From an uncultured Bacteroidales bacterium (GTDB lineage: Bacteria; Bacteroidota; Bacteroidia; Bacteroidales; UBA932): a stretch of DNA of 46,843 nucleotides. The notes beneath the pieces were generated by a model, which made no database searches, was not told the DNA's origin, and worked only from the letters and a program-made list of their open reading frames with translations. The stretch is taken from assembly GCA_900318355.1 (NCBI GenBank), contig ONKE01000023.1, positions 1-46,843 on the forward strand, read 5' to 3'. The translations under genes were made by a program, and so were the position numbers. Below are positions 5,750 to 24,157 of this stretch, in pieces; within the stretch, counting starts at the first letter, position 1, and the number at the start of each line of letters is the position of its first letter.

Positions 5750-6724
5750 TTAGTAGGCTATCCTCACCGATTCAGCGGAATCGTCGTTGAGAGTGAGCTG
5801 ATATTGGCCGCTGTAGGTGGTCAGGATGCCGGTAATGTCGACCTTGGCACCCTTGAGCACGCCTTCGGGAATCTCCGAATCGGCGAACTTGGCGTAGCCG
5901 CTCGTGCGCACCTGGAGGGGCTCGGAAGCTCCCGGAACGGTGAAATACTGGCTGGTGTTGACCGCGGAGGCGCCTGCAAGGTAGGCATCGACCTCGGCCT
6001 CGGGAATCTTGCCCTGGAAACGGTCGGCAAGGATATGCCTGCGCACGTTTTCGGCCGACATGGACCATGTTGTTATGCCGAAGTTGCCGCCGTTGCGAAG
6101 ATAGGTGGAACCGCCGCCGTTGTCATAGACGATGGTGAAGACCTGATTGCCGTAGGTGAGGTTTCTGAAACGTACCCTGCGGCCGAAATTCTTACCGTCG
6201 GCCATGTTCTCGGCCGTAATTTCGACGGGCTCGGGAAGAGGGTCGATGCGTCCCTTGAAAATATGGGTGTCGATCAGGGACTGGACGTCGATGTAGGCGG
6301 TCTCGTAGCTGGGATCGTCCGACTTGTAGCCGAGGCTGATCATGCCGTAGCTGGCGCCCAGGGTAAGGTCCTGGCACTTGATGTAGACCCATTGTCCGAG
6401 GCGGTAGTCGTTGTAGTTCTGGGACTTGCCGATCTTGACCTCGAGCCCGCCCGAGATGTCCTCGATATAGAACATGCGGTAGTTCTGGCCGTACTGGTCG
6501 GAGGAGACGATCTGGCCGCGGATCACGATATCGTCGGTGATGGTTACGGGAGTGCCTTTGTACATCGCCTTCAGTTCCGCGATGGACACCGTATTGGCGT
6601 CCAGGGCATAAGGTTCGGAAGCGGAAGCCTCGCCGTAGTCGGGCGTGAAGACAGGCTGCCATTCCCTGCAGGAAACCATGAGGGCCGTCAGGCACGCGGA
6701 CAGAAGAATTAACTGCTTTCTCAT
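5750..6724 (-). CDS. DUF5689-type lipoprotein with OB-like modules, 324 aa
   Basis: This is a surface or periplasmic lipoprotein: MRKQ, a hydrophobic run, lipobox MVSC. From about residue 45 (VSIAELKAMYKG) it matches the DUF5689 pattern. There is a beta-barrel-like unit with VIRGQIVSSDQYGQNYRMFYIED near 67-92 and GLEVKIG, then a long middle, then a second similar unit near 285-320 (DITGILTTYSGQYQLTLNDD). The G-x-V...FYIED...G arrangement is like an OB fold, which often binds nucleic acid or sugar; binding here is inferred. It lies 6 bases after the receptor gene at 6731-9715, so it is probably the lipoprotein partner of that receptor, where a SusD protein would be expected. Confidence 0.82.
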   Translation of the reverse strand: MRKQLILLSACLTALMVSCREWQPVFTPDYGEASASEPYALDANTVSIAELKAMYKGTPVTITDDIVIRGQIVSSDQYGQNYRMFYIEDISGGLEVKIGKSQNYNDYRLGQWVYIKCQDLTLGASYGMISLGYKSDDPSYETAYIDVQSLIDTHIFKGRIDPLPEPVEITAENMADGKNFGRRVRFRNLTYGNQVFTIVYDNGGGSTYLRNGGNFGITTWSMSAENVRRHILADRFQGKIPEAEVDAYLAGASAVNTSQYFTVPGASEPLQVRTSGYAKFADSEIPEGVLKGAKVDITGILTTYSGQYQLTLNDDSAESVRIAY

Positions 6725-6730
6725 ATTGCC

Positions 6731-9715
6731 TTAGAATCTGAAGTAGATGTTCAACATGTAATTGAAACCGGTCATATAGAAGTATTTGGCCGGGAAACGG
6801 TAGTAGCGCGTGTCGCTTTCGGTGTTGTCGACGACGCGGGTCTGCTCGTAGCCGCCGGTCTTGACGGAGGTGTTATTGAGCAGGTTCTTGGCGTTGAGCG
6901 AGAAACCGATGTTGTATTTGCGCTGGATGTACCACGACTTGCCGACGCTCACGTTGAGCAAGAAGCAAGGGTCGAACTTCTCCTGGGAGGCCATGTATTC
7001 GATCTCGCGGGGAGTGAACTTGTTGTCGGTACCGACGGTGGCGGCGTCAGTGCGGTAGAACGGGTTCATGTCCAGGTAGGAGTTGGCGAAGTAGTCACCG
7101 CTCAGTTCGACGAACCAATAGTTGTAGTTCCAGTTCAGGCCGAGGCTGGCAGCCAGTTCGGGAGTGCCGGGGACATGGTGCTGCTGGAAGCCGGTCTGGA
7201 CGAAGTTGCCGTCGAAGTCGGTGACATAGTCGCCGTCGGGGTATTTGCGGTAGACCGGATGGCTCTGCCAGTAAGGGATAAGTTCGTCTTCCATAACCAC
7301 TTCCGTGCTGTTGTCGACCGTCATGGTCATGCGGGGGTTGGAAGCGTAGACGAAGTTGCCGAGGGCGAGGACGCCGCGCAGGGACAGGCTGGGGATCGGG
7401 GTGGGAACCCTGAATCCGAACTCAAGGCCGATGTGGCGCTCGTCGATGCCGCTCATGGCGAAGTTGGTGAATGCATTCTGCAGGTCGTTGTAGAAGCTCA
7501 TCACCTTGGACTTGTCGTTGATGCGGGTGTAGTAGCCGGTCAGGCGGAAGTTGTAGCCCGCCGAGGAGAACTGCCAGTTGATGTCGGAGGAGAAGGTCTT
7601 GACCGTCGTGAGGCCGTTCATCAGGGAGTTGCGCGTACGCGGGGAGATGAATGCCTGGTTGAAGGTCGGAGCATCGCTGAAGTAGCCGGCGTTGGCGTAG
7701 AAACGCATGTTGCCGCCGATGACGTAGGCCAGGTTGACCTTTGCTGCACCGGTCAGGAAACGGGACACTTTCGACTGTCCGAAGGACGTGACGGCCTCGT
7801 TGGTGATGGGGTCGTAGGAGGTGAGGACGTTGCCGGAAGGGTCGAGGATTTCGTCGCCCTCGGGAGTGAGGCCGGCGAAGAGGCCCTTGCGCACCAGACC
7901 TTCGCGCCAGAAAGCGTTGTAGCCCAGACGGCCGGCGAGGTTGGCGCTGAAGCCGCCCACGGCGAAATGGCCGTTGACCCAGCCTTCGAGGTTGCGCACC
8001 TGCGCATAGTAGTCGTAGCCGTATTTGTCGCCTACGCCGAGGGTTTCGACCTGGCCCGCCGACATGAAGTAGTCGAGGTTGTTGGCCACCTTGGCGGGAA
8101 TTGCGGCGAAGTCGCGGTCGGCGAAGTTGTCGAGGTTGAGGTAGTAGTCGCCGCCGAGGAGGTCGCCCACCGTCTTGTAGTATTCAGTGCGGTTGATGCG
8201 GGCGGAAAGGCCGCCGGTGAGGGTGAACCAGTCGGCTGCACGCCACTTGGCGTTGGCCGCGAAGTTGAAGTCGTTCTGGTCGACGTGGCGGTGTTCGAGG
8301 ATGTATTTCGAACGTTTCTTGCCCCACTCGTTGACGCTGGCACGGTTCACGTCGTAGATACGCTGCCAGTTGAGCTGGGTGACCGAAAGGTCGCCGTGGG
8401 TCCATGCGTCGCGGGCCCATTCGGCCTTGACGGGGCTGTTGCGCTTGAAGTCGGCGACGTCGATGCCATAGCCGCCGTAGTAGGGGTTGTTCTCTTCGAG
8501 ATAATAGTAGCTCGGGAGGTTGCGGTAGTAGTCAGGCGACGGGTTGGGGGCGTCGTACCAGTCCATGGCCGAAGTCACGTTGGAACCGAAACGGCAGAGG
8601 AACGTGGCCGAGGCGCTGAACTTGTAGTTGGGCGTGAAATCGTATTTGAGGATGGCGATAGGCTCGTGGGTGGTACGGACGCGGGAGTTGCGCACCTTGC
8701 CGTCCTGCATACCCCAGTTGGAGTTGTAGAAGTTGCTGCGCACCAGATCGTAGACCTCCTGGGTGGAGGAATTCTGCATGCCGCGGGAGCCGGGAGAGGC
8801 CAGGAACGCCGCGCTCAGCTTATGGGCGTCGCCGAATTTCTTTTCGGCCGAGGCATAGTAGGCGAAACTGCGGTAGAATACGCCGGGAACCCAGTCGTTG
8901 CCGCCGAAACGGCCCGAGACGCTGAATGCGTAGGACCAGCCGTTGTCCAGGGGGCCGGATGCATATGTCATCATCAGACGCAGACGGTAGAAGGCGCTGT
9001 TGGTCAGCACGCTCCCCCGCCATCCCTTACGGACGTAGGAAGCCGTCATTGGCATATTGACGAGGCCGTTGTAGCCGCCGAGACCGTAGTCGGAAACCTC
9101 CAGTCCGGAAGAGGACATCTTCGCACGGGAAGCCTCGTTGAGGCCGCTCCACAGGCTGAACGGAGAATAGCCGGTGACGGCGTCGTTGAGGCGGACGCCG
9201 GCCACGTAGACATCCTGGGTCTCGCTGCTGTAGCCGCGGGCCTTGAAGCGGACGTTGCTGAAGTTGAACGCCGCAACCTGCTCGAAGACGTCGTTCTGCC
9301 CGAAGAGGACCGTAGGATTGTCGTTGTAGCCGCTGTCGTCCATGTCGAACTCCAGGAGGTTGTCTTCCATGGTGTCGTCCACGACCTGCGTCGGCGTCAT
9401 CGAGAGGTTGAACATATTTTTGACGAAACCGTCGTTGACCGTCACCGACACGCGGTTTTCCAGGAAGGCCGGGGCCGAGATGACGAGGTCATACATGCCG
9501 TTGTCCAGGTTTTCTATGAGGAAGGTGCCATCCTGTGACGACAGGATCTCGGTCACCAGGACGTCGCCCTTGTAGAGTTTGAGCGAGGCCTGCTGGATGG
9601 CCGACCTGTCAGCACGGCTGACGACCGTTCCTTTCACGCCGCCCGTGTATTCCTGGGCGGAAAGACCCAGGCAGCAGAGAGCGGCGGCAAGCACCAGGAT
9701 AAATTTCTTTGACAT
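6731..9715 (-). CDS. TonB-dependent outer-membrane receptor (third of three), 994 aa
   Basis: It has a signal peptide (cleavage after LGLSA, about residue 20), then a carboxypeptidase-regulatory-like domain (about 22-110, EYTGGVKGTVVSRAD). A plug follows (about 115-250; VRFKARGYSSETQDVYVAGVRL is the plug core), then a long Tyr/Asn/Gly-rich barrel ending in YFRF, the aromatic C-terminus of outer-membrane proteins. It should import a ligand using TonB energy. Unlike the other two receptors it lacks the VTKSGTN-type motif, so it belongs to another subfamily. The gene sits 6 bases after the EEP nuclease-like gene and 6 before the DUF5689 lipoprotein. That tight packing suggests it imports what the secreted enzymes release. 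Confidence 0.9.
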   Translation of the reverse strand: MSKKFILVLAAALCCLGLSAQEYTGGVKGTVVSRADRSAIQQASLKLYKGDVLVTEILSSQDGTFLIENLDNGMYDLVISAPAFLENRVSVTVNDGFVKNMFNLSMTPTQVVDDTMEDNLLEFDMDDSGYNDNPTVLFGQNDVFEQVAAFNFSNVRFKARGYSSETQDVYVAGVRLNDAVTGYSPFSLWSGLNEASRAKMSSSGLEVSDYGLGGYNGLVNMPMTASYVRKGWRGSVLTNSAFYRLRLMMTYASGPLDNGWSYAFSVSGRFGGNDWVPGVFYRSFAYYASAEKKFGDAHKLSAAFLASPGSRGMQNSSTQEVYDLVRSNFYNSNWGMQDGKVRNSRVRTTHEPIAILKYDFTPNYKFSASATFLCRFGSNVTSAMDWYDAPNPSPDYYRNLPSYYYLEENNPYYGGYGIDVADFKRNSPVKAEWARDAWTHGDLSVTQLNWQRIYDVNRASVNEWGKKRSKYILEHRHVDQNDFNFAANAKWRAADWFTLTGGLSARINRTEYYKTVGDLLGGDYYLNLDNFADRDFAAIPAKVANNLDYFMSAGQVETLGVGDKYGYDYYAQVRNLEGWVNGHFAVGGFSANLAGRLGYNAFWREGLVRKGLFAGLTPEGDEILDPSGNVLTSYDPITNEAVTSFGQSKVSRFLTGAAKVNLAYVIGGNMRFYANAGYFSDAPTFNQAFISPRTRNSLMNGLTTVKTFSSDINWQFSSAGYNFRLTGYYTRINDKSKVMSFYNDLQNAFTNFAMSGIDERHIGLEFGFRVPTPIPSLSLRGVLALGNFVYASNPRMTMTVDNSTEVVMEDELIPYWQSHPVYRKYPDGDYVTDFDGNFVQTGFQQHHVPGTPELAASLGLNWNYNYWFVELSGDYFANSYLDMNPFYRTDAATVGTDNKFTPREIEYMASQEKFDPCFLLNVSVGKSWYIQRKYNIGFSLNAKNLLNNTSVKTGGYEQTRVVDNTESDTRYYRFPAKYFYMTGFNYMLNIYFRF

Positions 9716-9721
9716 ATGCTG

Positions 9722-10792
9722 TTACTTATTACTTACTACAATATAGGTCGGGAAGTGGTCGCTGTACCCGTTGGTGAAAACTCCGTTGGAGAAGGTGCGC
9801 TTGGGCTGGTCTTTGTACTGACCTTCGTCCTGGCGCATCCACGGCGTCGAGAAAATGCGGCCGTAGAATTTCTTCTTGACGATGGGCCTGATGGTAAGGC
9901 TTCCGGCGGGGGCTTTCACGAGGTTGGAGTTGACTACCAGGATGTCGTAGATGTTCCACTCTCCGCGGTAGGCCAGGGAGCCGTAACCGGCCTTGAGCAT
10001 AGAAACAAAGGGCGAGAAGAAGTCTTCCTCCTTAACGTCTTCAATCTTTTCGCGGCCGTGCATGTAGACCGCCATGCTGTCGTCGGTGGGGTTGTCGTTC
10101 ATATCGCCCATGGCGACTATCTTGATGCCGGGATATTTCTCCATGAGCTTCATGGATTCATCATACATGATTTCGCCGCCGCGGCTGCGCAGGTCGCCGC
10201 CCTTGCCGCCGATACGGGAAGGGAGGTGGGCTACGAAGAAGGCGAACATTTCGCCGTTCAGCATGCCCCTGACCATGAGGATGTCACGGGTGCGGAACCA
10301 GTTTTGCTGCTCCTCGTCCATGGAGAACTCGATTTCGTCGGAGTCGAAATTGAAGGGGATGCTGCGGCTTTCCAGCACGGTGAACTGCTCGGGCTTATAG
10401 AGCAGGGCGACGTCAACGCCACGGCGGTCGGGGCCGTCGTAGTGGACGATCTGGTAGTTGGCCTCGGCGATCTCCGGCTGGCTCACGAGGTCTTCAAGGA
10501 CGTGGCGGTTTTCGATTTCGCTCACGCCGAGGATGGTGTGCCAGACCTTGTTTTCGTCCTTCATCGCACGGATGACGGAGGCCATGTTGTGGAGTTTCTT
10601 CTCGTATTTCACCTCGGTCCACTGGTTCGCGCCGTCGGGAAGATATTCGTAGTCGTTCTTGCCGTCGTCGTGATAGGTGTCGAAGAGGTTTTCGAGGTTG
10701 TAGAAACCTATGACGTAGCTGCGCTTCGGGCCTGCGGCGGATGCGGTGAGCACCACCAGGAGGCTAAGGAGTATGGTCAGTGTCTTTTTCAT
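9722..10792 (-). CDS. Secreted endonuclease/exonuclease/phosphatase-family enzyme, 356 aa
   Basis: This is a metal-dependent phosphodiesterase of the EEP (DNase I-like) superfamily. The motifs appear in order: FYNLENLFDT near residue 32 (Asn for metal or phosphate), VSEIEN near 92 (metal-binding Glu), DRRGVDVALLY near 125, MGDMNDNP near 225 (G-D-x-N) and GYSDHFPTYI at the C-terminus (Asp-His). It has a type I signal peptide (MKKTLTILLSLLVVLTASA), so it is secreted, not lipid-anchored. Family members cut DNA, RNA, phosphoinositides or sphingomyelin; beside a DNA/RNA endonuclease, nucleic acid is the likelier substrate. The ATG at 10792 starts the signal peptide and leaves 11 bases to the previous stop; the in-frame upstream start would overlap it. 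Confidence 0.88.
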   Translation of the reverse strand: MKKTLTILLSLLVVLTASAAGPKRSYVIGFYNLENLFDTYHDDGKNDYEYLPDGANQWTEVKYEKKLHNMASVIRAMKDENKVWHTILGVSEIENRHVLEDLVSQPEIAEANYQIVHYDGPDRRGVDVALLYKPEQFTVLESRSIPFNFDSDEIEFSMDEEQQNWFRTRDILMVRGMLNGEMFAFFVAHLPSRIGGKGGDLRSRGGEIMYDESMKLMEKYPGIKIVAMGDMNDNPTDDSMAVYMHGREKIEDVKEEDFFSPFVSMLKAGYGSLAYRGEWNIYDILVVNSNLVKAPAGSLTIRPIVKKKFYGRIFSTPWMRQDEGQYKDQPKRTFSNGVFTNGYSDHFPTYIVVSNK

Positions 10793-10803
10793 AGCCCGGT
10801 AAA

Positions 10804-12048
10804 TTATCTCCACCATTCAACGGTCTTGGGATCCTGTGTCTTGATCTGGGCGGCCTTGTCGGCGCCTACGCGGCTCTCAAGGGCGGCGAACAGCTTGTAG
10901 CCCAGCTTCTTTTCCAGTTCGTCGATGGAAATGGCCCAGTCGCGGGTGTATTTGACGTTGCTCTTGCTTTCGGCGCTCCATTCCTCGTGGTCGAACCAGA
11001 AGCCGGCGGCCATGAAACCGTCGATGCCAACGCCCTTGATGGAGGAGTAGCGGAGGCAGGCCTTGAAGTAGGCGGTGGGGACGGTGATCTGATGGCCGGA
11101 GCGGTCGTAGACGTAGTATTTCGCGTTCTTGGTCACGCAACCGGTAACGCAGAAGAGGGTGTCACGGTCCAGCGACGGGGTCCAGGCGTTGGAAATCTTG
11201 TTTTCAAGATTGGCCCAGGTGCCGCCGTTGAAATTGTTGTTCTGCGGAGTCATGTTGGTGCCGTAGAAGGTCATGGCATTGTTTTCATACACTCCCTGAC
11301 GGTGGTAGGAAGGAATCTGGTGGCCGCGTGCGTACCAACCGTTGTTGCCTTCGCGGTAGCCGCCGGAGACATCCTGCTGCAAGGCACTTTCCATAAAAGG
11401 ATCGTAGCCCCAGGCCTCGGTGCGGGTGCCGCTCTGGAGGTTGGAACCGCGGATGGCGGCGTTGGTCGGATATGCAACCCAGAAAGCTACGCGGTCGTCG
11501 TAGTTGAAGTAGTAGGAGAAGTTGCGCGTCTTGACGCCCGCCTGGGTGGTCATGGCGTGGGCGACGAAGTCCATGCCGTCGCCGGCCTTGGTCTCGGGCA
11601 ACTCAAGCCATGAAACGGGGGCGACCGCAACCGGAGTGATGTCCAGGGCAGAACCCGAAGCAGTGCCGCCGTCGCTTATCTTGCCGGACTGGGTGAAACG
11701 ATATTCGGAGGCGTAGCCGGCGCAGTGGAGCGTAATGATGCAGGTGCGCGCGTCGTTGGCATCGTTGATGCCGTAGCTGAGGGTGACGTCAGCCTGGCCG
11801 GTGCCGCGGTTGGGCTCAACTTTGGCCCAGCCGGAACCGTTGCCCTCGGGATACGAGACCGAGAGGGTCCACGAGCTTTCCGCCTCAACATTGATGTGTT
11901 GCTGCTTGCTGTCCTGGGCCGCGGGAGTACGGAGCTGCAGGATGACAGGCACCTCTTCCGGCCCCTGCTTGCGGCATGAGACCGGGAGCATCGCCATGGC
12001 GGCAAGGACCGCCGCCACGATCGGCATAAAGTGTCTGGTTGCTTTCAC
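10804..12048 (-). CDS. Lipoprotein DNA/RNA non-specific endonuclease with BACON domain, 414 aa
   Basis: This is a beta-beta-alpha-metal nuclease (Endonuclease_NS, NucA-like) that should cut single- and double-stranded DNA and RNA outside the cell. The signal peptide ends in the lipobox LPVSC at about residue 25. A BACON-like beta-sandwich follows (about 35-125, with SSWTLSVSYPEGNGSGWAKV). The nuclease domain spans about 150-405: ARGHQIPS near 245 supplies the general-base His, and TNMTPQNNNFNGGTWANLE near 270-290 supplies the Mg-binding Asn and the Glu. The common DRGH is ARGH here. The start is GTG at 12048; an ATG at 12027 would lose the basic N-terminus of the signal. The start lies 3 bases past the preceding stop. 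Confidence 0.88.
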   Translation of the reverse strand: MKATRHFMPIVAAVLAAMAMLPVSCRKQGPEEVPVILQLRTPAAQDSKQQHINVEAESSWTLSVSYPEGNGSGWAKVEPNRGTGQADVTLSYGINDANDARTCIITLHCAGYASEYRFTQSGKISDGGTASGSALDITPVAVAPVSWLELPETKAGDGMDFVAHAMTTQAGVKTRNFSYYFNYDDRVAFWVAYPTNAAIRGSNLQSGTRTEAWGYDPFMESALQQDVSGGYREGNNGWYARGHQIPSYHRQGVYENNAMTFYGTNMTPQNNNFNGGTWANLENKISNAWTPSLDRDTLFCVTGCVTKNAKYYVYDRSGHQITVPTAYFKACLRYSSIKGVGIDGFMAAGFWFDHEEWSAESKSNVKYTRDWAISIDELEKKLGYKLFAALESRVGADKAAQIKTQDPKTVEWWR

Positions 12049-12051
12049 GGC

Positions 12052-15000
12052 TTATTTTGTTACGAGTTGGATATCGTCGATACGGACGTTCTGGGCAAGG
12101 GAGTTGGTAAAGACCAGGGTCATGGTGCTTACACCCGCGGAAATGGTTATCGGGTAGGAGATGGTGAAGGGCTTGGCAGCCTCGGTGCCGGTAACTACAT
12201 TGCCGACAGTGACGCCGGAAGTAGTCGAAGAAACGGCGTATTTGCTGGCGCTCTTAATGTTGTTGACCTTGAAGGTCAGGGTCGCCTGCGTTGCGCCTGC
12301 AGTAGGAATGCCGGTGATCGTCCATTCATCATCCGGATCAGCCGCCTCGGCCTTGCCGCGGAAGATAAGATTGGGCTGGGCGGTGCCGCCATCCATTTCG
12401 CTGTCCACTTTGATGGTGGAATTGGCCATCGTAACCGTATAGGAGACTTTTCCGCCGCCATAGACCGTGGTGCCGGAGTAGGTGTAGGCGGAGAGGGCCG
12501 TCTCGGCCGCAGCGCCGGTCCAGGTTTCGGCCCAAAGGACGGTGCCGGAGCCGGAGGGATCGGTGTTGCCGCCCTGCTGACCACCCTGCTCGCCGCCTTG
12601 TTCGCCGCCCTGCTCGCCGCCTTGTTCGCCGCCCTGCTCGCCGCCACCCTGCTGGCCACCGCCGCCTTCGACGGTGCCCTTGCCGGCTACCTTAACATTC
12701 CAGATCTCCCATGTACCGGCAGCGGAGGATGTGCTCTTGTAGACGAACGCGACCTTGATCTTCTGGCCAAGGAAGGAGGCCAGGTCGATGGTCTGGGCGT
12801 CGCCCGCGGAGGCGGACCAGTTGCCGGAAGCGATCTCCGGATATGTGATGGTCTGCTTGACCGGGTTGCCGTCGGCGCCTATGATGTAGACCATGGCCTC
12901 GTCGGCGACCGTGCCGAAGTATTTGTTGATGATCTGCAGGAAAGTCAGCTTCGCCTCGGTGGCCTTGGAGAGGTCGATTTCAGGCGAAACGAGCCAGCTT
13001 TCGGCGGCCTTGTTGCTGCCGGCGTAGGCGGAGGCCTTCATGTAGTGACGCTCGGCGTCGTGCTTCCAGACATAGCTCAGGCCTTCTTCCATGTTCTTGT
13101 TGTCGATGGTGAAGTTGCCCTGGCTGGCCTCGAACGTCTCCTCGAGGAAGGTCACGTCACCGACGACGGGCTCGGACTGGCCTGCGGTTACGGTCACCGT
13201 GCAGGTGGCGCTGGCGGCCGTGAATTTGCCCTCGACAGCGGCGACGGAGGCAGTGATCGTGGCGGTGCCGGCGGCCTTGGCGGTGATAACGCCGCCGATG
13301 ACCGAAGCGACCTGGGGATTGGATGTGCCGTAGGTTATGGTGGCGGTGGAGTTGGTCGTGGCGGCATTGGTCACGGACTCGCCCACTGTCATGCTGAGGC
13401 TGGCCTGCGGGAACGTCACCGTGGCTGTCACCGGCTGGGAAGGAGCCGGAGCGGAGCCCTTGGCATAGAGCGTCGGGAGGGAGCGGGTCTCAGAGGTCGC
13501 ATCGTAAGCGCCGGCGGAGTTGTACGAGGAATCGTACTGGATGAACTTGTTCCGGGCGGCGTTCGTGATCTTGAACGTGCCGTCGTTCTGCGGCTCGACC
13601 GTCCAGACGCCGGCCTCGGCCGGGATGCCTTCGGAGACGTTGAAGTTGTTGTGGGTGGCGTCCATGTAGAGGTAGCGGCCGTCGGGCTGCTTGATGTAGA
13701 AGCCGTTGTCCGCCGCCTCGAAGACGAACTCATCGGAGGTTTCGGCCTCGATGGTGCCCGTGGCGGAGACCGTCACGGCCGTGCTGTAGAGCCAGCCGTA
13801 GGTCTTGTCGGCAGCGACGCCGCTGACTTTCTGGTCGCCGAAGACAATCACGTAGCCCGTGCCGGCCACCACGGAGGAGACTTTTTCATAGACGTTGCCC
13901 GTCGGGGTGTCGGGGCCGGGGCCGGGAGTGTCGCCGCCCGGGGTGATGTCGATGACGGTGCCGGCAGTCGAGGACTCGGCGAGGGTCACGTCGTCGAGGC
14001 GGTAGCTGCTGGCTTCCTTGGTCGCAAAGCGGATATAGAGGGAATTTACGCCTTCAGGCAGGGTGAAGGTCGAGGTAGCGAGGGCCCAGGTGGCCGCTTT
14101 CACGCCGCCGTCAAAAGCGTAGGTAAGGTCGGCCCAGGTGGAGCCGTCGCCGCTGAGGGAAACGATGAACTTGCTGTAATCGAAGTTGTTGGCATCACCG
14201 GTGGCGCCATAGAGGCTGTGATAACCGCCGAAGGAAAGCGTATAGTTGCGGCCGGTGGCCAGGGTGATCTTCTCGATGACGAAGTTGCCCGTCTCGCCGA
14301 AGAAGATGTTGTTGGTGCCGGAAGCGCCGGTGTAGTCCTTCGACGGGGTGTTGCTGCGGACCGTGATCTTCGCACCGCCGGAATAGGTGACCGTGGTGGC
14401 GCCGGAGCCGGACTGGTTCTTATAGACATCGGAAGAACCGATCGCAGGCCAGGCCGTGCCGTCCTGCGTGGCGGCCGTCTTGTCGAAATTGTTCGTGTAC
14501 ACCACGCCGCCCGGGGTCGGGGTGGGGCCCGGATCCGGAGTTTCACCGCCGCCGGAGGTGCCGGTTTCGATCTTCACCAGACGGACTTCCCATGTGCCGG
14601 CCTTGGTAGTGGAGCCTTTGTAGCAAAGGCCTACCTGAATCTTCTTGCCGATGAATTCCTTGATGTCCATAGCTCCGGAGGAGACGAAGGTCCAGTCGCT
14701 GCCGGAAGGATAAGTGGGGATGGTGAACTGCTTCCATTCGCCGCCGACAGGACGTACATACACGAGCCACTCCTTGCTCATCGTGCCGGCGTAGCGTCCG
14801 GCGTGCTCGATGGAGAGCAGGGCGCTCGGGGCGTTGGTCAGGTCGATCTCCGGGGAGATGAGCCAGCTTTCGGCGTTGTAGTTGGTCGAATTGACATATG
14901 AAGTCGCCTTCATGCCCTGGGAGGTGCCGCCATAGGTCCAGACGTTGGAGACCGCGGCGTCCTTGCTCTTGTCCTCGATGGTCCAGTCGCCCTGGCCGGT

Positions 15001-15523: not shown

Positions 15524-15545
15524 AATCGGCAGTATTATATTGCTG

Positions 15546-18500
15546 CTAGAAGGTCAGGCGAACGCCGAAAATCATGCTCCAGCAGTTGCCGGCAGCCAAT
15601 GCGCGGTCCCACTTGGTGTAGGACTTGAAGGCATCGACGCCACCGTTTGCGGCGGTTTTGGCCGTGGCGTTGGTATTCAGGGCGAAAGTAGGAGCAGTAG
15701 TGCCGCCACCATTGTTGACAACCTTGAGCAGGTTGAGGTTCTGGTAGCTCAGTGCGCTGGCGGTGTAGTAGTTGCCCCATGCCGGGTTGATGAGGTTGGC
15801 GACGTTGAGGATATCCAGGGTCAGCTGGAGGCCGAAGCGGTTCTTCGTGCCGAAGTTGCTGTAGATATCCTGAGCGAACTTGAAGTCGATGCGGTTGACC
15901 CACTTCTGCAGGTCACCGAAGCGCTCGACATACTGGCCCTTGTGGCTGCTGAGGTACTTGTTGCCGTCGACATACTCGAAGAAAGCAGTGCTCTGGTCGG
16001 CTGCGTTGGCAAGGAGAACATCGCCCTCTCCGCCGGGGAAATCGCCATATTTGACCTTACCGCCCGAGACGTAGATGTCGGCGAACTTGATTTCGCTTGC
16101 ATCCTTCGGGACGTAGAGGAGGTCGGCCTTGGCACCGTCGCCGTTCAGGTCGTCAGCGTAGGTGTAGGAGATGCGGCCGTTGTGGGCGCCCTGGTAGAAG
16201 ATCGAGAACGTGGAGGCGAAGTTGCGGGCGTAGCTGATCTTATAGCTCAGGCTGGCGACAACGCGGTGAGGGATCGAGAAATTGGAGTAGCTCAGCACCT
16301 CGTCGTTGAGGGAACCGACAGCCGTGTTGGCGGTCCAGACGGAGTAGGCGGTGGAACCGGGGTTGGCGGTCACGTCCTTGACGTCGGAATAGGTGTAGGC
16401 CACCATACCGGACAGGCCGTTGGAGAAGTTCTTGGTGAGCTGTGCGGTGAACTGTGCGGCGTAGCCCTTGCGGGTGTTGGTGAAGAGCATTGCCGAGGAA
16501 ACATCGTTGTTGATCTTGTTGCCAGCGGCCCAAAGGGGACGGTTGTCGGCGCCTGCGAGGGTGGTGCTGGGGTCTTTCTGGTTGGCGTTGACCTGGAACA
16601 CGGAGTAGATGTCCTTCGTGTAGAGGGCTTCACCCGTAAAGACCATGTCCCAAGGGAGCTTCACGTCGAAGGCAAGGTTGCTTCTCCACACCATCGGGAA
16701 GTGGAAGTTCTTGTCGACCATGGCCAGGTTGGCAGGAGTCGGCAGGCTGTTGGCATTAGGCGCGTCGGGGAATACCGTAGGATATTTCTTCAGCAGGTCG
16801 AGATAGTCGGGAGTGAACTTGAGATCAGGGAAGTTGGCTGCGACGGCCGTTGCATCGAAGGAAAGTTCAGGAGACTGGACCATGCCGCTGCCGCCCACCT
16901 GGTTGGTGAACCATACGAAGGGGTTGACACCGGTGAAGAGACCCGTGCCGCCGCGTACCTGCAGGGAACGGTCGCCGAGGACATCCCAGTTGAAGCCGAC
17001 GCGCGGGTTGATGCTGATGCGGCTCTTGGGCCATGTGCCGGTATCCCATGCCCCGCCGGGATATTTGCCTTCCTGGGCGACCTGGAGGATCTTGTTGTTG
17101 GTCTCCATCTTGTCGAGGTAGAAGGGCATCTCGAAGCGGACGCCGTAGGTCAGACGGAACTTGCGGGTGATCTCCCACTCGTCCTGGATGTAGGCGCTGG
17201 CCTGGCTGTAGTGCATCTGCTGGCCGGGAACATTGCCGCCGTAGTAGCCGTAGGTAAGACCCATTCCGATAGGAGCCTTGTCCTGGAGGAAGTCGTCGAC
17301 AGAAGCATAGCGGTAGTAGGAGGTACCTTCACGGGTGTAGATGTTGTTGACGAACATGTACTCGAAGGAGGCGCCGGCGGTCAGGGTGTGGTTGCCGAGG
17401 TTGAAGGTGATATTGTCGGTAATGTCGACGGTGTTGTTGTCGACGGTGTTGCCCCATGTGAAGAGCTCGTAACCCAAGGACATGTAGGCATTGCCGTCCT
17501 TCCAGATGTCCACCTGCGGGAACTTGGCGGAGGGAGAGCCGCGGCGGTCGCTGATAAGGTTGACAGTTGCAAGGAACTGGTTGGACACGACGTCGGAGAA
17601 ACGGGAACTGAGTTCAGCGGCGAAGGACAACACATTGTTGTTCATCGTATAGAAGTTGTTGCTGAACGGGACGGACTGGTCGCTGGAACGGCCGGCGGTG
17701 GCCCTGGCGAGACCCGACGGGCCGGAAGTGGGGTTAGGGGTGTTCCAGACGGAGTTGACGACATCGTTGAAGCGGAACATCAAGTGGTGGTCGTTGTTGA
17801 TGTTCCAGTCGATGCGGGCCATGATCTTGTAGCCGTAGTTGTTGAAGTTGGCCCATCCGCCCTCTCCGAAGGTACCGGGATCATAGGTCCAGCCCTTCGA
17901 AGGGTCGAGCAGGTAGTCCTTGACCTTCTGGAGGTCTTCAACGGTGGTACGGGCGATGCCTTCAGCCTTGTTGGCTACACCGTCGGTCGAAGGACGGTAG
18001 GCAGGGCCCTGGGCACTTGACGGAGCATATTCGGCATTGACGAAGAAGAAGAGCTTGTCCTTGACGATGGGGCCGCCGACGGAGAAGCCGTAGGTCTGGC
18101 TCGTAAGGTCCTTGGCACCGTTGACGGTCTTGTCGGCCACCTTGTCACCGTGCATGCCCTTGAACATCTGGTAGGTGTAGACGCTTCCGTCCCAATCATT
18201 GGTACCGCTCTTGGTTACGGCGTTGATGGCCGCACCGGTGAAACGGGACTGACGCACGTCGTAGGGCGAAAGGTTCACCTGGATTTCCTCGATGGCTTCG
18301 TAGGAGACGGGGTTGCCGCCGCCCGGCATGTCGGCATTGAGGCCGAAGTTATTGTTGAAGCCCGAACCGTCAACCATGAAGTTGTTCATACGGTTGTCGC
18401 GGCCGCCGAAGCTCAGACCATTGGACTGAGGGGTGAGCTTGAGAACATCGGAGATGGAACGGGTGCCGGTAGGCAGGTTGGCCAGGTCGCGGCTGGTGAA

Positions 18501-18920
18501 GTTGGAAGATGCACCGGCTTTCTCGGAATTGAGGATGGGGTTGCCCACATCGGCCGTTACGACCACACCTTCAAGGGAGAGGGACTCCTCGACCAGACGG
18601 ACGTCGTGGACGTAGGTTTCACCGAGCTTGAGGATGATGCCGTCGGTCACGGATTTGCCGTAGCCAAGCATTTCGATCTCAACGCGGTAGGGACCACCGA
18701 CGCGCATGTTGTGGATACGGTAGTTACCGCTGCGGTCGGTAACCGTGTGGTAAGTTGTTCCGGAAGGCGTGTGGACCGCGAGGACCACTGCACCTGCTAC
18801 ATCACCGGTCGAGTCGTAGACGCGACCTCCAAGGGAAGACGTTGTCACCTGTGCGAAGGCGACGGAACCTGCAAACATCGTAGTGATTGCAAGCAAAACC
18901 AACAGAATTGATTTTTTCAT
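15546..18920 (-). CDS. Oar-like TonB-dependent receptor (second of three), 1124 aa
   Basis: This is an outer-membrane receptor. The signal peptide MKKSILLVLLAI... ends near residue 23 (AFA before QVTTSS). A carboxypeptidase-regulatory-like domain follows (about 27-105, LGGRVYDSTGDVAGA). The plug region (about 115-235) includes the Oar-type motif INAVTKSGTNDWDGSV, and the barrel ends in VRLTF. I chose the ATG at 18920 rather than an upstream in-frame one, because the signal peptide begins there. It is clearly paralogous to the receptor at 20567-23989. It lies 77 bases after the OB/BACON lipoprotein, across a terminator-like hairpin, so its expression may depend on read-through. No SusD gene is next to it. 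Confidence 0.9.
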   Translation of the reverse strand: MKKSILLVLLAITTMFAGSVAFAQVTTSSLGGRVYDSTGDVAGAVVLAVHTPSGTTYHTVTDRSGNYRIHNMRVGGPYRVEIEMLGYGKSVTDGIILKLGETYVHDVRLVEESLSLEGVVVTADVGNPILNSEKAGASSNFTSRDLANLPTGTRSISDVLKLTPQSNGLSFGGRDNRMNNFMVDGSGFNNNFGLNADMPGGGNPVSYEAIEEIQVNLSPYDVRQSRFTGAAINAVTKSGTNDWDGSVYTYQMFKGMHGDKVADKTVNGAKDLTSQTYGFSVGGPIVKDKLFFFVNAEYAPSSAQGPAYRPSTDGVANKAEGIARTTVEDLQKVKDYLLDPSKGWTYDPGTFGEGGWANFNNYGYKIMARIDWNINNDHHLMFRFNDVVNSVWNTPNPTSGPSGLARATAGRSSDQSVPFSNNFYTMNNNVLSFAAELSSRFSDVVSNQFLATVNLISDRRGSPSAKFPQVDIWKDGNAYMSLGYELFTWGNTVDNNTVDITDNITFNLGNHTLTAGASFEYMFVNNIYTREGTSYYRYASVDDFLQDKAPIGMGLTYGYYGGNVPGQQMHYSQASAYIQDEWEITRKFRLTYGVRFEMPFYLDKMETNNKILQVAQEGKYPGGAWDTGTWPKSRISINPRVGFNWDVLGDRSLQVRGGTGLFTGVNPFVWFTNQVGGSGMVQSPELSFDATAVAANFPDLKFTPDYLDLLKKYPTVFPDAPNANSLPTPANLAMVDKNFHFPMVWRSNLAFDVKLPWDMVFTGEALYTKDIYSVFQVNANQKDPSTTLAGADNRPLWAAGNKINNDVSSAMLFTNTRKGYAAQFTAQLTKNFSNGLSGMVAYTYSDVKDVTANPGSTAYSVWTANTAVGSLNDEVLSYSNFSIPHRVVASLSYKISYARNFASTFSIFYQGAHNGRISYTYADDLNGDGAKADLLYVPKDASEIKFADIYVSGGKVKYGDFPGGEGDVLLANAADQSTAFFEYVDGNKYLSSHKGQYVERFGDLQKWVNRIDFKFAQDIYSNFGTKNRFGLQLTLDILNVANLINPAWGNYYTASALSYQNLNLLKVVNNGGGTTAPTFALNTNATAKTAANGGVDAFKSYTKWDRALAAGNCWSMIFGVRLTF

Positions 18921-18954
18921 ATAAAAATAAGTGATAAAAAAAGGTTGTTTCAAA

Positions 18955-18995
18955 AAACGTTAAAATGGCGTCCCGACACTCGGAAACGCCATTTT
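18955..18995 (-). terminator. Intra-operon terminator or attenuator hairpin
   Basis: The minus strand, two bases past the lipoprotein stop, has AAAATGGCGT and ACGCCATTTT as a perfect 10-bp stem (plus coordinates 18962-18971 and 18986-18995). It is followed by AACGTTTTTT. It should cut transcription between the lipoprotein and the second receptor. No good promoter lies between it and that receptor, so partial read-through is likely. Confidence 0.8.
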
Positions 18996-18997
18996 CA

Positions 18998-20554
18998 TTA
19001 AGGTGCTTGTTGGGTCAGTGTGGCCTTCAACGGGTCTGCCACTCCTGCGACCCTTATGGTAAAGCTCGCCGAGCGCTCGGCTCCGGTAGTGTTCTGCAGG
19101 ACTACCACGGTAAGGGTGCCGTTGTCGGTGCCGCCGGCGGAGTATTCGGTCACCCAAGGGTAGTCGCCGTCAGCCTCGACCGTCCAGCTGCCCGACATGT
19201 TGGTAAACTCTATTGCAAACGAGGCGACGGTGCCGGTGGCGGGGAGAGTCAAGGTCGCAGGATTTACGACAACCTGGCTCACAGCCTTTTTGTGGTCTTT
19301 AAGCACCGAGGTGGCCGCTATCGGGATGCCCCAGTCGCCGCGGCTGGACCAGATGGTAACCTGGTCGCCGACCTTGATGCCCTTGGAGTTGAGCTGGCCG
19401 TCGGTGTATTCCTTGCCGCCAACCCCGTCGTAGAGGCCTGCGACGTAGATGGAGCCTGTTTCATCTTTGATGTAGAAGTTGCTGTATTGCTCGCCGTCCA
19501 CGATCTGGAACACCGTGCCGGTAAGGGCGTAGAACATTTCGGTGTCGACCGGTTTGGCCATGAATTCGGCGATGGTGAGGGCGTCGACGTCGGTCCGGCC
19601 GGTCTGGACAAGCGTCAGTTCGAGGTCTTCAGCACCTTCGGAACTTACGACGAATGTGGCCGTGCGCTGCTTCATGGTGGTGTTGGCCGCAAGGGTGACG
19701 GTGATGTCGCCGCTTTCGGTGCCTTCCTTCGTGTAGTCGGTGACCCAACTGCATTCTTCCTTGAGCGCGACCGTCCATTTCTGTTCGAGGTTGGCAACCT
19801 TGAGGGCGAACTTGGCGGAAAGGTCGGCAGCCGCGGCCGTCACCTTCGGGTCCGCGCAGGTCAGCATCGGGTCGGTCGGCTCGGTCCACTCTATCGGATA
19901 GGTCTTCATACCTTCGGGAGTGCCTTTGTAGGATCCGCGGGTGGTCCCGATCTTGAAATGCCATCCGACGTTGACGCCATTCCTGTCGAGCCAGCCGTCG
20001 GTGAACTGAGGGCCGTTTTTGCCGTCGTACAGGCCGTAGATGTAGATTTCGCCGGTTCCGTCGTTAAGGTAGAAGTTGGAATACCTGTCGGATTGCGTGA
20101 CCTTGGTGATCTTGCCGGTGAGGATATAGAAGATGGAGTCGTCGTCTTTCTTTTTCAGGAATTCGGCGACGGTGATTTCCTGGATGAGCTCGCCCAGGGC
20201 GCCTTCCTGCTCCACTCGGGCGGCCGAGCCGACGAAATCGCCGGTCAGGGAAATGAGGGCGCTGCGGTTGTAGTCTTCATTCTTGCCCATGTGGACCGTC
20301 AGGGTGGTCTTACCTGCGCCGCCGGCAGTCGGGAAGACGCTCACGTCGTCGACATTGTCGCGCGAGGAACCGGGGTATACGACGGCTTTCCAGTCGACGG
20401 TGGAATAGACCGTGATCGTTACGTCACCGCCGTCTGCGCCTAGCTGATAGATGCCCTGGTCGGTGGAGACGAGCGGCTGGTCGACAGGTGTTGACATCCG
20501 GCAGGAAGCGATTGCCAGAATTCCGAGGATTGAGAGAATATGCTTGACTTTCAT
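18998..20554 (-). CDS. Lipoprotein with alternating BACON and OB-like modules, 518 aa
   Basis: This is a surface lipoprotein (lipobox AIASC, about residue 18). It reads as BACON (about 30-105), OB-like (about 110-230), BACON (about 238-318), OB-like (about 322-420) and BACON (about 430-518). The two OB-like units share a signature: ITVAEFLKKK / LTIAEFMAKP, then YILTGKI / YALTGTV, then RYSNFYLNDGTGEIYIYGLY / QYSNFYIKDETGSIYVAGLY, and both end with a TRGSYKGTPEG- or SRGDWGIP-type stretch. Such units resemble nucleic-acid-binding OB folds, though ligand binding is inferred. It lies 12 bases after the first receptor, so it is probably that receptor's surface partner in place of SusD. Confidence 0.85.
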   Translation of the reverse strand: MKVKHILSILGILAIASCRMSTPVDQPLVSTDQGIYQLGADGGDVTITVYSTVDWKAVVYPGSSRDNVDDVSVFPTAGGAGKTTLTVHMGKNEDYNRSALISLTGDFVGSAARVEQEGALGELIQEITVAEFLKKKDDDSIFYILTGKITKVTQSDRYSNFYLNDGTGEIYIYGLYDGKNGPQFTDGWLDRNGVNVGWHFKIGTTRGSYKGTPEGMKTYPIEWTEPTDPMLTCADPKVTAAAADLSAKFALKVANLEQKWTVALKEECSWVTDYTKEGTESGDITVTLAANTTMKQRTATFVVSSEGAEDLELTLVQTGRTDVDALTIAEFMAKPVDTEMFYALTGTVFQIVDGEQYSNFYIKDETGSIYVAGLYDGVGGKEYTDGQLNSKGIKVGDQVTIWSSRGDWGIPIAATSVLKDHKKAVSQVVVNPATLTLPATGTVASFAIEFTNMSGSWTVEADGDYPWVTEYSAGGTDNGTLTVVVLQNTTGAERSASFTIRVAGVADPLKATLTQQAP

Positions 20555-20566
20555 GGCTTTCTGCTT

Positions 20567-23500
20567 TTAGAAGATGTAACGTGCGCTGAAAATCATCTGC
20601 CAGGTGGAATCGAAGCCCGTGTAGCGGTTGAAGGTCTCATAGAGCTTGTCGGACCCGTCGGCGCGGAAATTGAACACCGGTTTGGCACCCTCCGTATACA
20701 CATCCTTGGCATTGGTCAGAACCAGGGGCTTGGCGCTCTGGCGTGCGCTCCACTCGTTGCCCCATGCGGGATTGAGCAGGTTGCCGATGTTCTGGATGTC
20801 GAGGCCCAGCTGGATGGTGTGTTTGTAGGAACCGGTGAAGAAGTAGAAGTTCTGCTTGAACTGCAGGTCGAAGTGATGGGTCCAGGGACCGACGAGGGCA
20901 TAGCGCTCGGCGACCTTGCCGGTGTGAGAACGCAGGTAGGGGTCTTGCTGGATGTAGTTCCAGAAGTCGCGCTTCTGGTCTTCGGCACGATAGACGATGG
21001 CTTTCTGGGCGTCGGTGTAGCCGGAGCCGGTGAAGGGCTTGTAGTCTTCGAACTTCCAGCCGTCGTTGCCGTAGATGTCTTCATAGGTCGGGATGTCCAT
21101 CGGATCGTAGGCGTTGGCGCCGGTGTTGAGGATGCTGCTGCCGGCGTAGTAGCTCGGAGTATAACGGCCGACCGGGCCGCCATAGTAGGTAAGGGTCACC
21201 GAGGATCCGGCCCATTTGAGATAATCTATGGAATAGGAGACGTTGGCGATAACGCGGTGGGGCATCACGTAGCTTGCCCAGCCGAGCTCGGGCTCGTTGG
21301 CGCCTCCGATGCCGCTCAGACCGTTCCAGACGCTGTAGAGCTGGTCGCCGACTCCGTCGTTGATGACCCGGGATGCGGCGTGGGTGTAGGAAACGGAACC
21401 GCTCAGGCCGTGCCAGGGTTTCTTTTCGAGCTTGGCGGTTACGCTGTAGTACCAGCCCCAGAGTTTCGGGTTGGTTACATTATAAAGAAGATAAGCCGCC
21501 GTGATCTGGCTGTCATAGGAACCGTTGGCATAGTAGGGACGCGCGACGATGTCCTGCGTCTCGGTGAGCCTGGTAGGGTTCTTCAGGCCGATGTTGCGCA
21601 CGGTCACCGGGTTGATATCCTTCTTGAAAGTGCCTTCGACCGAAGCGACGAAACCGCCGGGCAGCTCGGCATCGAGGGCCAGGGATGATTTCCACGACAT
21701 CGGGCTCGTCAGGTCTTTGTCCATAAGGGTGATGCTCGTGAGGTTCAGGCCCGAGGCTTCCGGCGAGAATCCTTCAGGATAAACCTGGGCCAGAAGGGCG
21801 TCGCGGCTGCCGGAAATGGTCGGAACCGTCTGGCCGGCCGCTACGCTGCGGGTAACCGTGGTCTGGAGCACGCCGGCGTCGCCGCTCTGGGCTACTATCC
21901 ACACGAAGGGGATGCGGCCGATGAAGATGCCGGTACCGCCGCGGGCGACAAGCTTGCGGTTGCCGAGGATGTCCCAGTTGAAGCCTACGCGGGGAGATGC
22001 GGTCAGGCGCGACTTCGGCATGTCGACGGTGTTGTATTTGCCGTCAGGATAGCTCAGAGTGGGAGCGAAGGTGGTCTGTTCGACACGCTGGTTGCGGTTG
22101 AAATCGAGGCTGGGATAGATGGGAACTTCGAGGCGGACGCCCGCATTGAGCTTGAAGCGGTCGCTCACCGACCAGTCGTCCTGCAGGTAGAGGGCGAACT
22201 GGTAGAAATTGAAATGGGGATATTCCTGGGCGAAGGTGGAATTGTTGCCGTGGGTGATGGCGAACTGCGAGGGCGTGTCCAGCCATGTGCCGGCTTTCAG
22301 GGCATCGTAAAGCTCCTGCTCGTCGTCAAATTCATAGACGAAAGCGCCTGCACCCATACGCTGGAAGCCGTTTTTGGTCACGTCGCTCTCGAACTGGACA
22401 CCGGCCAGGAGAGAGTGGCTGCCAAGGCTGTAAGTGAGCTCATCGGTCGCAACCAGGGTGGTCACATCGCGGAGGTTGCCGTAGGAGAAAGGCTCGTAAC
22501 CGAAAGAGGTGTAGGTGTTTCCGCCAACGGCAACATCAACGAAGGGGAAGAAGCCACCATCGACATGACGGGGCTCGTACTGGTGGGACCAGGTAAAGCG
22601 CAAAGCGTTGCCGAGCGTGCCGTCGAGGAAGCGGGAGTTGAGTTCGGCAGCGACCGAGGAGTGGTTCTGGTCCTGATAGTAACGCGCGTTCTGGAAATAG
22701 AGGGCGTACATCGAAGTACGGTTTTGCGATGTATAGCCCGTGTTGGCAAAGCCGGTCGTCGAGGTGGACGGAGCCGAGGCATAGCCGCTGTTGACCAGGG
22801 AGTAGCGGATGTTGAGCCTGTGGTCGCGACTGATGTTCCAGTCGATACGGCCGAGGAACTTGAAGGAAGGAGTTTCGGTGTTGTAGCCGAGGTACATACC
22901 GGGGTCGTAGCCGTATTTGGAGCGGAGCTGGCTCTGGATCAGGTCGAGTACCAGGGCGCTCGGACGGGCGACGCCGTTGCTGCCGTTGGAGAAGACGTTG
23001 CCTCCTTCCACGTTGACTATCTTGCCGTCCGCGTCAAGGGTGCGGTCGGAGAGCTTGCGGGTGGGGCCGGGGGATACGCTGCGGTCCCATTCGGCGTTGA
23101 TGAAGAAGAAGAACTTGTCCTTGACGATGGGGCCGCCGACCGTGAAACCGCCCATGTTGTAGTGGTTGTTGGTCTTGGAGAGCTCGACGCCATTGACATT
23201 GTAGCCCTGCATGTCCTGGTTGCGGAAATACCAGTAGGCGGTGGCGTGGTATTGGTTGGTACCGGACTTGGTGGTGGCGTTGATGCCGCCGCCGGTGAAG
23301 CCGGACTGACGCACGTCGTAAGGGGTGATGGAGATGGCGACCTGGTCGAGAGCCTCGAGGGAAATCGGGCTGCCGCCGGCCGGAAGGTTGGAGCCGATAC
23401 CGAAGGCGTTGTTGAACGCCGCACCGTCGACGGTCACATAGGAATCGCGGTAGGAACCGCCTCCAATGTAGGTCTTGGTGCCACTGACATAGGCCTGCGG

Positions 23501-23989
23501 CGTCTGCTTGAGGATATCGTTCATGCTGCGCGAGATGCTCGGCAGCGACATGATCTGCTTCGACGAAAGGGAGGTCATGGCGCCGGCGCGGTCGGAACGC
23601 ATGTTGGACGAGCCGCTTTCCGCGGATACGGTGACGGCGTCAAGCTGCATCGACTCTTCAGAGAGGTTGGCATTGAGCAGCATGTTGTCCGACAGGGCGA
23701 GATTGACCCCGGTGTAGACCTTGTCGGAGTAGCCGAGGCACGAAACCGTGACGGTGTAGGGGCCGCCGGCGGTCATGTTGGGAATCCTGTAGAGGCCCTT
23801 GGTATCGGTTACGGAGTAGAATTGGGATCCGGTCGGCTGGTGGACGGCAACTACGGTTGCGCCCGCCAGGGGCCCTTGCTTGTCAGTGACTTTGCCGCTT
23901 ATGGAGGAAGTAGTCACCTGGGCATGGGATACCACCCCCGCGACCAGAAGACTGATAGCGAGAAGGACCGATTTGATAGCTTGCTTCAT
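20567..23989 (-). CDS. Oar-like TonB-dependent receptor (first of three), 1140 aa
   Basis: This is an outer-membrane receptor. The signal peptide MKQAIKSVLLAISL... is cut near residue 23 (SHA before QVTTSS). A carboxypeptidase-regulatory-like domain follows (about 27-105, ISGKVTDKQGPLAGA). The plug (about 115-235) includes GGINATTKSGTNQYH, and the barrel ends in ARYIF. The open frame runs 66 codons further upstream, but that part lies across the promoter and has no signal peptide, so I start at 23989. It is paralogous to the receptor at 15546-18920 along its length. It is driven by a textbook promoter (24021-24051) that is divergent from metK, and it heads the first block. Ligand unknown; nucleic acid or a breakdown product is inferred from the neighbours. 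Confidence 0.9.
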   Translation of the reverse strand: MKQAIKSVLLAISLLVAGVVSHAQVTTSSISGKVTDKQGPLAGATVVAVHQPTGSQFYSVTDTKGLYRIPNMTAGGPYTVTVSCLGYSDKVYTGVNLALSDNMLLNANLSEESMQLDAVTVSAESGSSNMRSDRAGAMTSLSSKQIMSLPSISRSMNDILKQTPQAYVSGTKTYIGGGSYRDSYVTVDGAAFNNAFGIGSNLPAGGSPISLEALDQVAISITPYDVRQSGFTGGGINATTKSGTNQYHATAYWYFRNQDMQGYNVNGVELSKTNNHYNMGGFTVGGPIVKDKFFFFINAEWDRSVSPGPTRKLSDRTLDADGKIVNVEGGNVFSNGSNGVARPSALVLDLIQSQLRSKYGYDPGMYLGYNTETPSFKFLGRIDWNISRDHRLNIRYSLVNSGYASAPSTSTTGFANTGYTSQNRTSMYALYFQNARYYQDQNHSSVAAELNSRFLDGTLGNALRFTWSHQYEPRHVDGGFFPFVDVAVGGNTYTSFGYEPFSYGNLRDVTTLVATDELTYSLGSHSLLAGVQFESDVTKNGFQRMGAGAFVYEFDDEQELYDALKAGTWLDTPSQFAITHGNNSTFAQEYPHFNFYQFALYLQDDWSVSDRFKLNAGVRLEVPIYPSLDFNRNQRVEQTTFAPTLSYPDGKYNTVDMPKSRLTASPRVGFNWDILGNRKLVARGGTGIFIGRIPFVWIVAQSGDAGVLQTTVTRSVAAGQTVPTISGSRDALLAQVYPEGFSPEASGLNLTSITLMDKDLTSPMSWKSSLALDAELPGGFVASVEGTFKKDINPVTVRNIGLKNPTRLTETQDIVARPYYANGSYDSQITAAYLLYNVTNPKLWGWYYSVTAKLEKKPWHGLSGSVSYTHAASRVINDGVGDQLYSVWNGLSGIGGANEPELGWASYVMPHRVIANVSYSIDYLKWAGSSVTLTYYGGPVGRYTPSYYAGSSILNTGANAYDPMDIPTYEDIYGNDGWKFEDYKPFTGSGYTDAQKAIVYRAEDQKRDFWNYIQQDPYLRSHTGKVAERYALVGPWTHHFDLQFKQNFYFFTGSYKHTIQLGLDIQNIGNLLNPAWGNEWSARQSAKPLVLTNAKDVYTEGAKPVFNFRADGSDKLYETFNRYTGFDSTWQMIFSARYIF

Positions 23990-24139: not shown

Positions 24140-24157
24140 CACCTGCCTTGAATGGGG

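Follow-up and report, generated by a model that had tools for sequence, protein, structure and literature searches.

A candidate outer-membrane DNA importer encoded beside nuclease genes in an uncultured Bacteroidales bacterium

How DNA passes across the outer membrane of Bacteroidota is an open question, and it is raised directly by a locus for surface lipoproteins, TonB-dependent receptors and secreted nucleases in an uncultured Bacteroidales bacterium. We analyzed contig ONKE01000023.1 of assembly GCA_900318355.1 over its 46,843 nucleotides (hereafter the window), which belongs to a 2.31 Mb draft genome. Eight genes, H-G-F-E-D-C-B-A, lie on the minus strand at 5750–24187 and are followed by a GT4 glycosyltransferase gene. 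The original prediction, made from the sequence alone, treated these eight genes as one block for the uptake of extracellular nucleic acid; the genes are present at this place and on this strand, and their Pfam families match those described. Our best explanation, with a probability of roughly 0.6, is that B and A form an outer-membrane importer of nucleic acid, probably DNA, that C, D and E act as helpers, and that the main use here is nutritional.

Gene B (6731..9715, minus strand) encodes a TonB-dependent receptor of 994 amino acids with an N-terminal CarboxypepD_reg domain, a plug and a barrel. Pfam matches were confined to CarboxypepD_reg (PF13620) and related N-terminal families, and neither a plug nor a SusC barrel was matched there; a PDB sequence search gave matches through the CarboxypepD_reg part only. 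The structure model was clearly that of a TonB-dependent receptor with the plug inside a large beta-barrel. B is like BtuB and the BtuB-BtuG pair in fold only; its identity to BtuB is 16%, and its lipoprotein is a different one. Gene A (5750..6724, minus strand) encodes a DUF5689 lipoprotein of 324 amino acids (PF18942, 1.7e-40), whose lipobox residue Cys19 is invariant among 41 aligned proteins. The AlphaFold model of A (pLDDT 89.8) contains OB-type domains. Its top Foldseek matches were RADX with single-stranded DNA (4.5e-6) and RPA (1.1e-5), then HIN-200, with MCM10 also present, all at low TM-scores; a PDB sequence search with A gave a single match (E 0.78). The model resembles DNA-binding multi-OB proteins, and A is predicted to be an OB-type surface receptor for DNA.

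A homologous pair has published genetics. In Riemerella anatipestifer, a screen of 3000 transposon mutants followed by markerless deletions led to eight genes being described as essential for natural transformation, RA0C_RS04915 and RA0C_RS04920 along with others that include comEC, dprA, comF and recA; helix-hairpin-helix and DUF1343 genes also came from this screen (PMC8459023). RS04915 is a predicted outer-membrane protein with CarboxypepD_reg, and RS04920 carries DUF5689 and DUF5017. Markerless deletion of either gene brought transformation below the detection limit of about 4e-10, and deletion of the SusC/RagA receptor RS09840 left it unaffected. The authors proposed that RS04920 binds DNA and that RS04915 carries it across the outer membrane (PMC8459023). 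According to that report, the nuclease that produces single strands in their model was not identified, no pilus homologues were found in R. anatipestifer, and RS04915 homologues occurred in Flavobacteriaceae only (PMC8459023). Mutants of tonBA and tonBB also showed reduced transformation, partly confounded by iron effects (PMC8383284).

We compared the window with Flavobacteriales loci of this kind. A search of the class with NCBIfam NF052645 (M949_1556 lipoprotein) detected 10 of 295 genomes at 1e-60. A B homologue of 855–959 amino acids was encoded upstream of the lipoprotein gene in all 10 loci, directly in 8 and with one small gene between in 2, and a divergent gene of the endonuclease/exonuclease/phosphatase (EEP) family lay beside B in 8. 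We fetched 14 further loci of one Flavobacteriales family, out of 86 NF052645-positive genomes; B was beside A in all 14, and a divergent C was present in 12. In one genome, G488, eleven genes from recA to A fit the tags RS04870–RS04920 in steps of five, when a gene split by two fetched stretches is counted once. By these tags, comEC is RS04895, the EEP gene RS04910, B RS04915 and A RS04920. The comF and dprA genes lie further along, with a spacing one gene less than RS05105 and RS05130 imply, and the Pfam domains equal the published ones, with DUF5017 below the cut-off. We infer that G488 is R. anatipestifer. Judged by gene order and domains, the window-type set recurs in Flavobacteriales and appears there to include RS04915 and RS04920. 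A few genes downstream of B-A in this genome, a frame of 1145 amino acids (L119, 15495–18932) has a start that we take to resemble Cas9.

Window B and G488 B share 26.8% identity over 1028 columns (residues 1–994 to 1–935), and PF13620 is found in both; the two A proteins share 30.6% over 72 residues. In a FastTree tree of 105 rows, B of both orders was split from two paralogues with a support of 0.978; the tree was rooted on one paralogue, one protein (L069) was entered twice, and Flavobacteriales B formed no separate clade. The homology of B is based on synteny, scores and this tree. Lower-scoring B paralogues also occur near C-type EEP genes, in L118 and L030 (424 and 535 bits); the EEP gene is one gene away in L118 and adjoining in L030. 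In L030, the true B-A pair is on the other side of the EEP gene.

The window and the R. anatipestifer pair thus share a receptor barrel with CarboxypepD_reg, a DUF5689 lipoprotein gene directly downstream of it and an EEP gene adjoining it. Unlike RS04920, window A has no C-terminal choice-of-anchor J or DUF5017 part in Pfam and NCBIfam scans, whereas the separate gene E has two choice-of-anchor J stretches. NF052645 matched the first part of window A at 59 bits against a cut-off of 475; its match to the last part of window E was also far below the cut-off and was due to the common choice-of-anchor J region alone. Among 67 scanned lipoproteins (66 adjoining B in loci of the order Bacteroidales and the one of inferred R. 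anatipestifer), DUF5689 was found in 67 and choice-of-anchor J in 40. The latter is variable among B neighbours and therefore was not used as a defining feature. C is co-directional with B in the window and divergent in R. anatipestifer, the window adds the Endonuclease_NS lipoprotein D, and ComEC is short in the window lineage.

B-A adjacency is not a chance pair. We sampled 149 genomes of the order, of which 81 had DUF5689 at 1e-8, and fetched 69 loci through A alone; the other DUF5689-positive genomes were that of the window and 11 whose matches were weaker. A lay directly after B in 66 of the 69 loci. The three loci without B were L048, L065 and L073 in one count and L048, L065 and L069 in the other. 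A contig end truncates L048, in L073 a fragment of B stands next to A where the contig stops, and the L065 genome encodes B elsewhere, beside C (L110). C was directly upstream of B in 42 of the 66 loci (39 divergent and 3 co-directional), as counted with a threshold of 365 bits for C; four divergent C genes of 360–364 bits, recorded in the survey of the 14 further Flavobacteriales loci, fall under this threshold. In the remaining 24, B was at the contig edge in 6 and another gene was upstream in 18. An independent B search detected 69 of the 149 genomes above 640 bits. EEP matches of at least 395 bits occurred in 53 of these 69 against 2 of the 80 B-negative genomes, with the cut-off chosen by eye after inspection of the list and with G113 (B 428 bits, beside A) scored as B-negative. 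These genomes are related, and p-values therefore overstate the association.

A further sample consisted of named relatives, the best 80, by B similarity, of at least 583 confirmed B relatives. These records are of Bacteroidales type, show 39–65% identity over the best segment and for the most part are metagenome bins from rumen and gut; Candidatus Cryptobacteroides, Rikenellaceae, Alistipes and Bacteroides are among them, and Bacteroides reticulotermitis JCM 10512 (L209) is one carrier of D-C-B-A. A followed B in 78 of the 80 loci, a co-directional C preceded B in 78, and D preceded C in 77, with all three genes co-directional. D-C-B was absent in three, two of which start at B, while in the third (L158) C is preceded by no more than a short stretch; misses sit at contig ends. 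D was present in 77 of these 80 loci against 7 of the 69 order loci and none of the 24 Flavobacteriales loci, and we therefore regard it as a partner that belongs to the lineage of the window and to related ones. The original prediction was to fail if relatives did not keep the nuclease genes beside receptor genes, and it withstands this check: a nuclease gene is kept there in the order, the named and both Flavobacteriales samples.

Gene C (9722..10792, minus strand) encodes a secreted EEP nuclease with a signal peptide (Exo_endo_phos_3, PF19580, 1e-90). The EEP motif set consists of N, E, D, H, GDxN and SDH, and the key residues of all six motifs are invariant or nearly invariant across 149 C proteins. 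Gene D (10804..12048, minus strand) encodes a BACON and Endonuclease_NS lipoprotein (PF13004, 4.3e-6; PF01223, 5.2e-29 in Pfam), a predicted surface nuclease non-specific for DNA and RNA. In Endonuclease_NS enzymes, RGH holds the catalytic histidine and is accompanied by a metal-site asparagine and a downstream glutamate. These residues are invariant in all 76 aligned D proteins. The motifs expected of both enzymes are therefore intact, as had been claimed, and the one deviation is ARGH for the usual DRGH, with A at that position in 16 of the 76. By its description, D is comparable to the EndA-type entry nuclease of Streptococcus pneumoniae, a surface DNA/RNA non-specific nuclease tied to DNA uptake; the envelope differs. 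Four more Endonuclease_NS matches lie outside the locus in the window genome.

In two order genomes, a second, lower-scoring EEP paralogue (PF19580) was seen by eye near comEC (L235, 1898–4030 and its neighbour; G040:C92, 43569–46756), a possible further link between nucleases and competence. A second locus of the window's own genome (L088, G000:C47, 2091–14414) encodes a SusC-type receptor, SusD, a BACON lipoprotein, a DUF5689-bearing protein and a different EEP-family protein (PF03372), with a second DUF5689 match just past the DUF5689-bearing protein. DUF5689 and EEP genes therefore meet twice in this genome, once with SusCD.

The genes, synteny, homology and motifs of D-C-B-A are observed; from them we infer that B-A most likely imports DNA. 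A would hold DNA at the cell surface, and B would move it to the periplasm, powered by TonB. The surface nuclease D and the secreted nuclease C would cut or trim DNA before or after passage, and E may be an additional surface binder. B-A would be a device of the kind on which natural transformation of R. anatipestifer depends. In the window lineage, which adds nuclease D and has ComEC reduced to its membrane core, the DNA would mainly supply nucleotides, phosphate and nitrogen. The import idea of the original prediction is kept; the competence homology had been missed in it, and hence import of long DNA had been left out.

EEP enzymes also cleave phospholipids and inositol phosphates, and the imported compound may be RNA or another phosphodiester nutrient, with the R. 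anatipestifer defect arising indirectly through nutrition. Phosphate and peptone influence transformation of this species (PMC8383284), and Flavobacterium johnsoniae responds to phosphate depletion with the induction of receptors, lipoproteins and extracellular nucleases from a different family (PMC8115612). However, the transformation defect was total for both genes (PMC8459023), and the window operon encodes two unrelated nuclease families. We consider this explanation improbable.

A further question is whether the DNA taken up by B-A is used for transformation or as food. If for transformation, B-A would bring in long DNA, C, perhaps with D, would nick or trim it, and a short ComEC would pass one strand to DprA and RecA. 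The homology and common synteny with the R. anatipestifer pair are consistent with this possibility. The window genome and two relatives have an open ComEC frame of 360–373 amino acids with the membrane core (L137, 196–1278; L219, 2726–3847; L220, 3081–4178), and a ComEC match was found in 139 of the 149 order genomes. Porphyromonas gingivalis, a member of Bacteroidales, also bears on this. That species requires ComEA and ComEC, whereas the step at the outer membrane has yet to be explained (PMC11532111).

Other results stand against transformation as the use of DNA in this lineage. Searches of the window genome and the two relatives gave no DUF4131, and two operon nucleases could destroy incoming DNA. 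B was present in 7 of the 10 order genomes without a ComEC match; a second ComEC query on these 7 was negative in 6 and recovered a fragment in the other, and it scored positive in two near relatives. In the window's family, 58 of 59 genomes had a ComEC match, with frames of at most 500 amino acids in 32 and of at least 650 in 20, and 6 set aside. B occurred in 14 of the 32 short-ComEC genomes and 8 of the 20 long-ComEC genomes (p = 1.0). Thus, B presence does not track ComEC. We had considered ComEC loss as proof of a nutritional role and dropped it, because the order counts were not significant and ComEC length was unrelated to B in the family.

Because B does not track ComEC and the operon has a second nuclease, we favour DNA foraging as the main use in the window's Cryptobacteroides-like lineage and regard transformation as the less likely use there. 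Bacteroidota incorporate extracellular DNA, as described for Lutibacter (PMC8289736). Three points weigh against foraging: the transformable species also has a nuclease gene beside its B-A pair, the genomes are drafts, and short ComEC proteins can function elsewhere.

The remaining genes of the locus are E, F, G and H. Gene E (12052..15408, minus strand) encodes a lipoprotein of 1118 amino acids with a BACON-like part (BACON_2, 9.4e-5, below the cut-off) and two choice-of-anchor J stretches (NF038128, 4.7e-19). A hyaluronate-lyase N-terminal beta-sheet match in E was disregarded (17.6 bits against a cut-off of 27). In the 77 D-C-B loci, 72 have a same-strand gene before D; its best label was E-like in 35, and a lipobox-like motif was found in 56 by a crude pattern. 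Gene F (15546..18920, minus strand, open reading frame (ORF) from 18953) and gene H (20567..23989, minus strand) encode accessory TonB-dependent receptors of the OMP_b-brl_4 type (PF25183, 1.5e-56 and 2.2e-56; H also PF00593, 7.5e-7), which are Oar-like. They are paralogues, with a mutual phmmer match of about 1e-188. Gene G (18998..20554, minus strand) encodes an accessory lipoprotein with BACON repeats (PF13004, 3e-19) and two OB-like stretches below the cut-off. When the profiles of G and A were compared, the probability was 20% (E 0.0011, residues 342–397), and we rejected G as a DUF5689 relative.

Relatives of F, G and H were found in 1 of the 69 order loci (L083; loci up to 20 kb), and F/H-like ORFs were found in 10 of the 80 named loci, whose flanks reached no further than 7 kb. 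We therefore rejected a single unit of 18 kb. What is conserved is C-B-A, joined by D in the lineage of the window and in related ones, and F, G and H appear to have been added locally, with no sign of a nucleic-acid role. The earlier proposal of nucleic-acid uptake gains from the genetics of the homologous pair (PMC8459023) and from the OB-type model of A; this support does not extend to these three genes.

The start of H is more likely at 23989, the end originally assigned to it, than at the GTG at 24187, where the ORF opens. C overlaps D by 13 bases when counted from its ORF opening at 10816, and the gap is 11 bases if C starts at the ATG at 10792, which by eye is a better fit to the signal peptide. 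Signal types of the window proteins were assigned by eye and by a crude pattern. Gaps of 3–12 bases had been described, and this is accurate for H-G (12), E-D (3), C-B (6), B-A (6) and A to the GT4 gene (10), but not for G-F (44) and F-E (137). The GT4 gene occupies 4573–5739. In many close relatives, the position after A holds instead a gene for about 660–680 amino acids, whose product by its sequence looks like a Dcp-type peptidase lipoprotein. Elsewhere in the window, two ATP-synt_ab proteins, one with a V/A-type C-terminal domain, are encoded at 36121–41838 on the minus strand, which suggests an A/V-type ATPase operon.

A receptor, a surface lipoprotein and secreted enzymes in one operon are also typical of SusC/SusD nutrient loci. 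BACON domains are common in glycan utilisation loci, and a glycoside hydrolase (GH) family 20 gene lies past a divergent S-adenosylmethionine synthetase gene (25603–27255), so that the nucleases might be incidental to glycan use. However, no SusD, GH or polysaccharide lyase family was found above the Pfam cut-off in the eight proteins, in agreement with the earlier reading, and an NCBIfam-type scan also gave no SusD. The genes shared across the class are those for the nuclease, the receptor and DUF5689. A glycan locus is therefore highly improbable. The window differs from SusC/SusD loci in its lack of SusD, its OB-type partner lipoprotein and a B without a Pfam plug or SusC barrel match. Ribonucleoside loci are of the SusC/SusD type. 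The phosphate-induced PusCD is a nutrient locus of this type as well (PMC8115612).

The pair RS04915/RS04920 is already known in R. anatipestifer. In the literature searched, mostly listings, we found no EEP partner, no B in Bacteroidales, no D-C-B-A operon and no OB reading of DUF5689; within that scope, the occurrence in Bacteroidales, the EEP gene as a frequent partner and the operon are new. It is fair to call the combination little described: the DUF5689 literature found is one report, which in the text available names RS04910 once, without annotation in that passage, and never uses the word exonuclease (PMC8459023).

B-A may be a general outer-membrane DNA importer of pilus-less Bacteroidota with an EEP nuclease from an adjacent gene, used by some lineages for transformation and by others to feed on DNA; we hold this broader proposal tentatively, at somewhat under an even chance. 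Such an importer would therefore replace the type IV pilus route known in other Gram-negative bacteria. For P. gingivalis, a 2024 paper states that the route to the periplasm remains unclear (PMC11532111). A sediment DNA-feeding study describes Bacteroidota as important DNA degraders, and neither TonB nor the outer membrane nor DNA uptake is mentioned in its main text (PMC8289736). For the nuclease that converts double- to single-stranded DNA in the R. anatipestifer model (PMC8459023), the EEP gene next to B-A is a candidate. As targets for deletion, the module offers a single receptor, a single binding protein and a nuclease that is often linked to them. If our explanation is true, gut and rumen Bacteroidota would own a dedicated TonB-type path to eat or acquire DNA.
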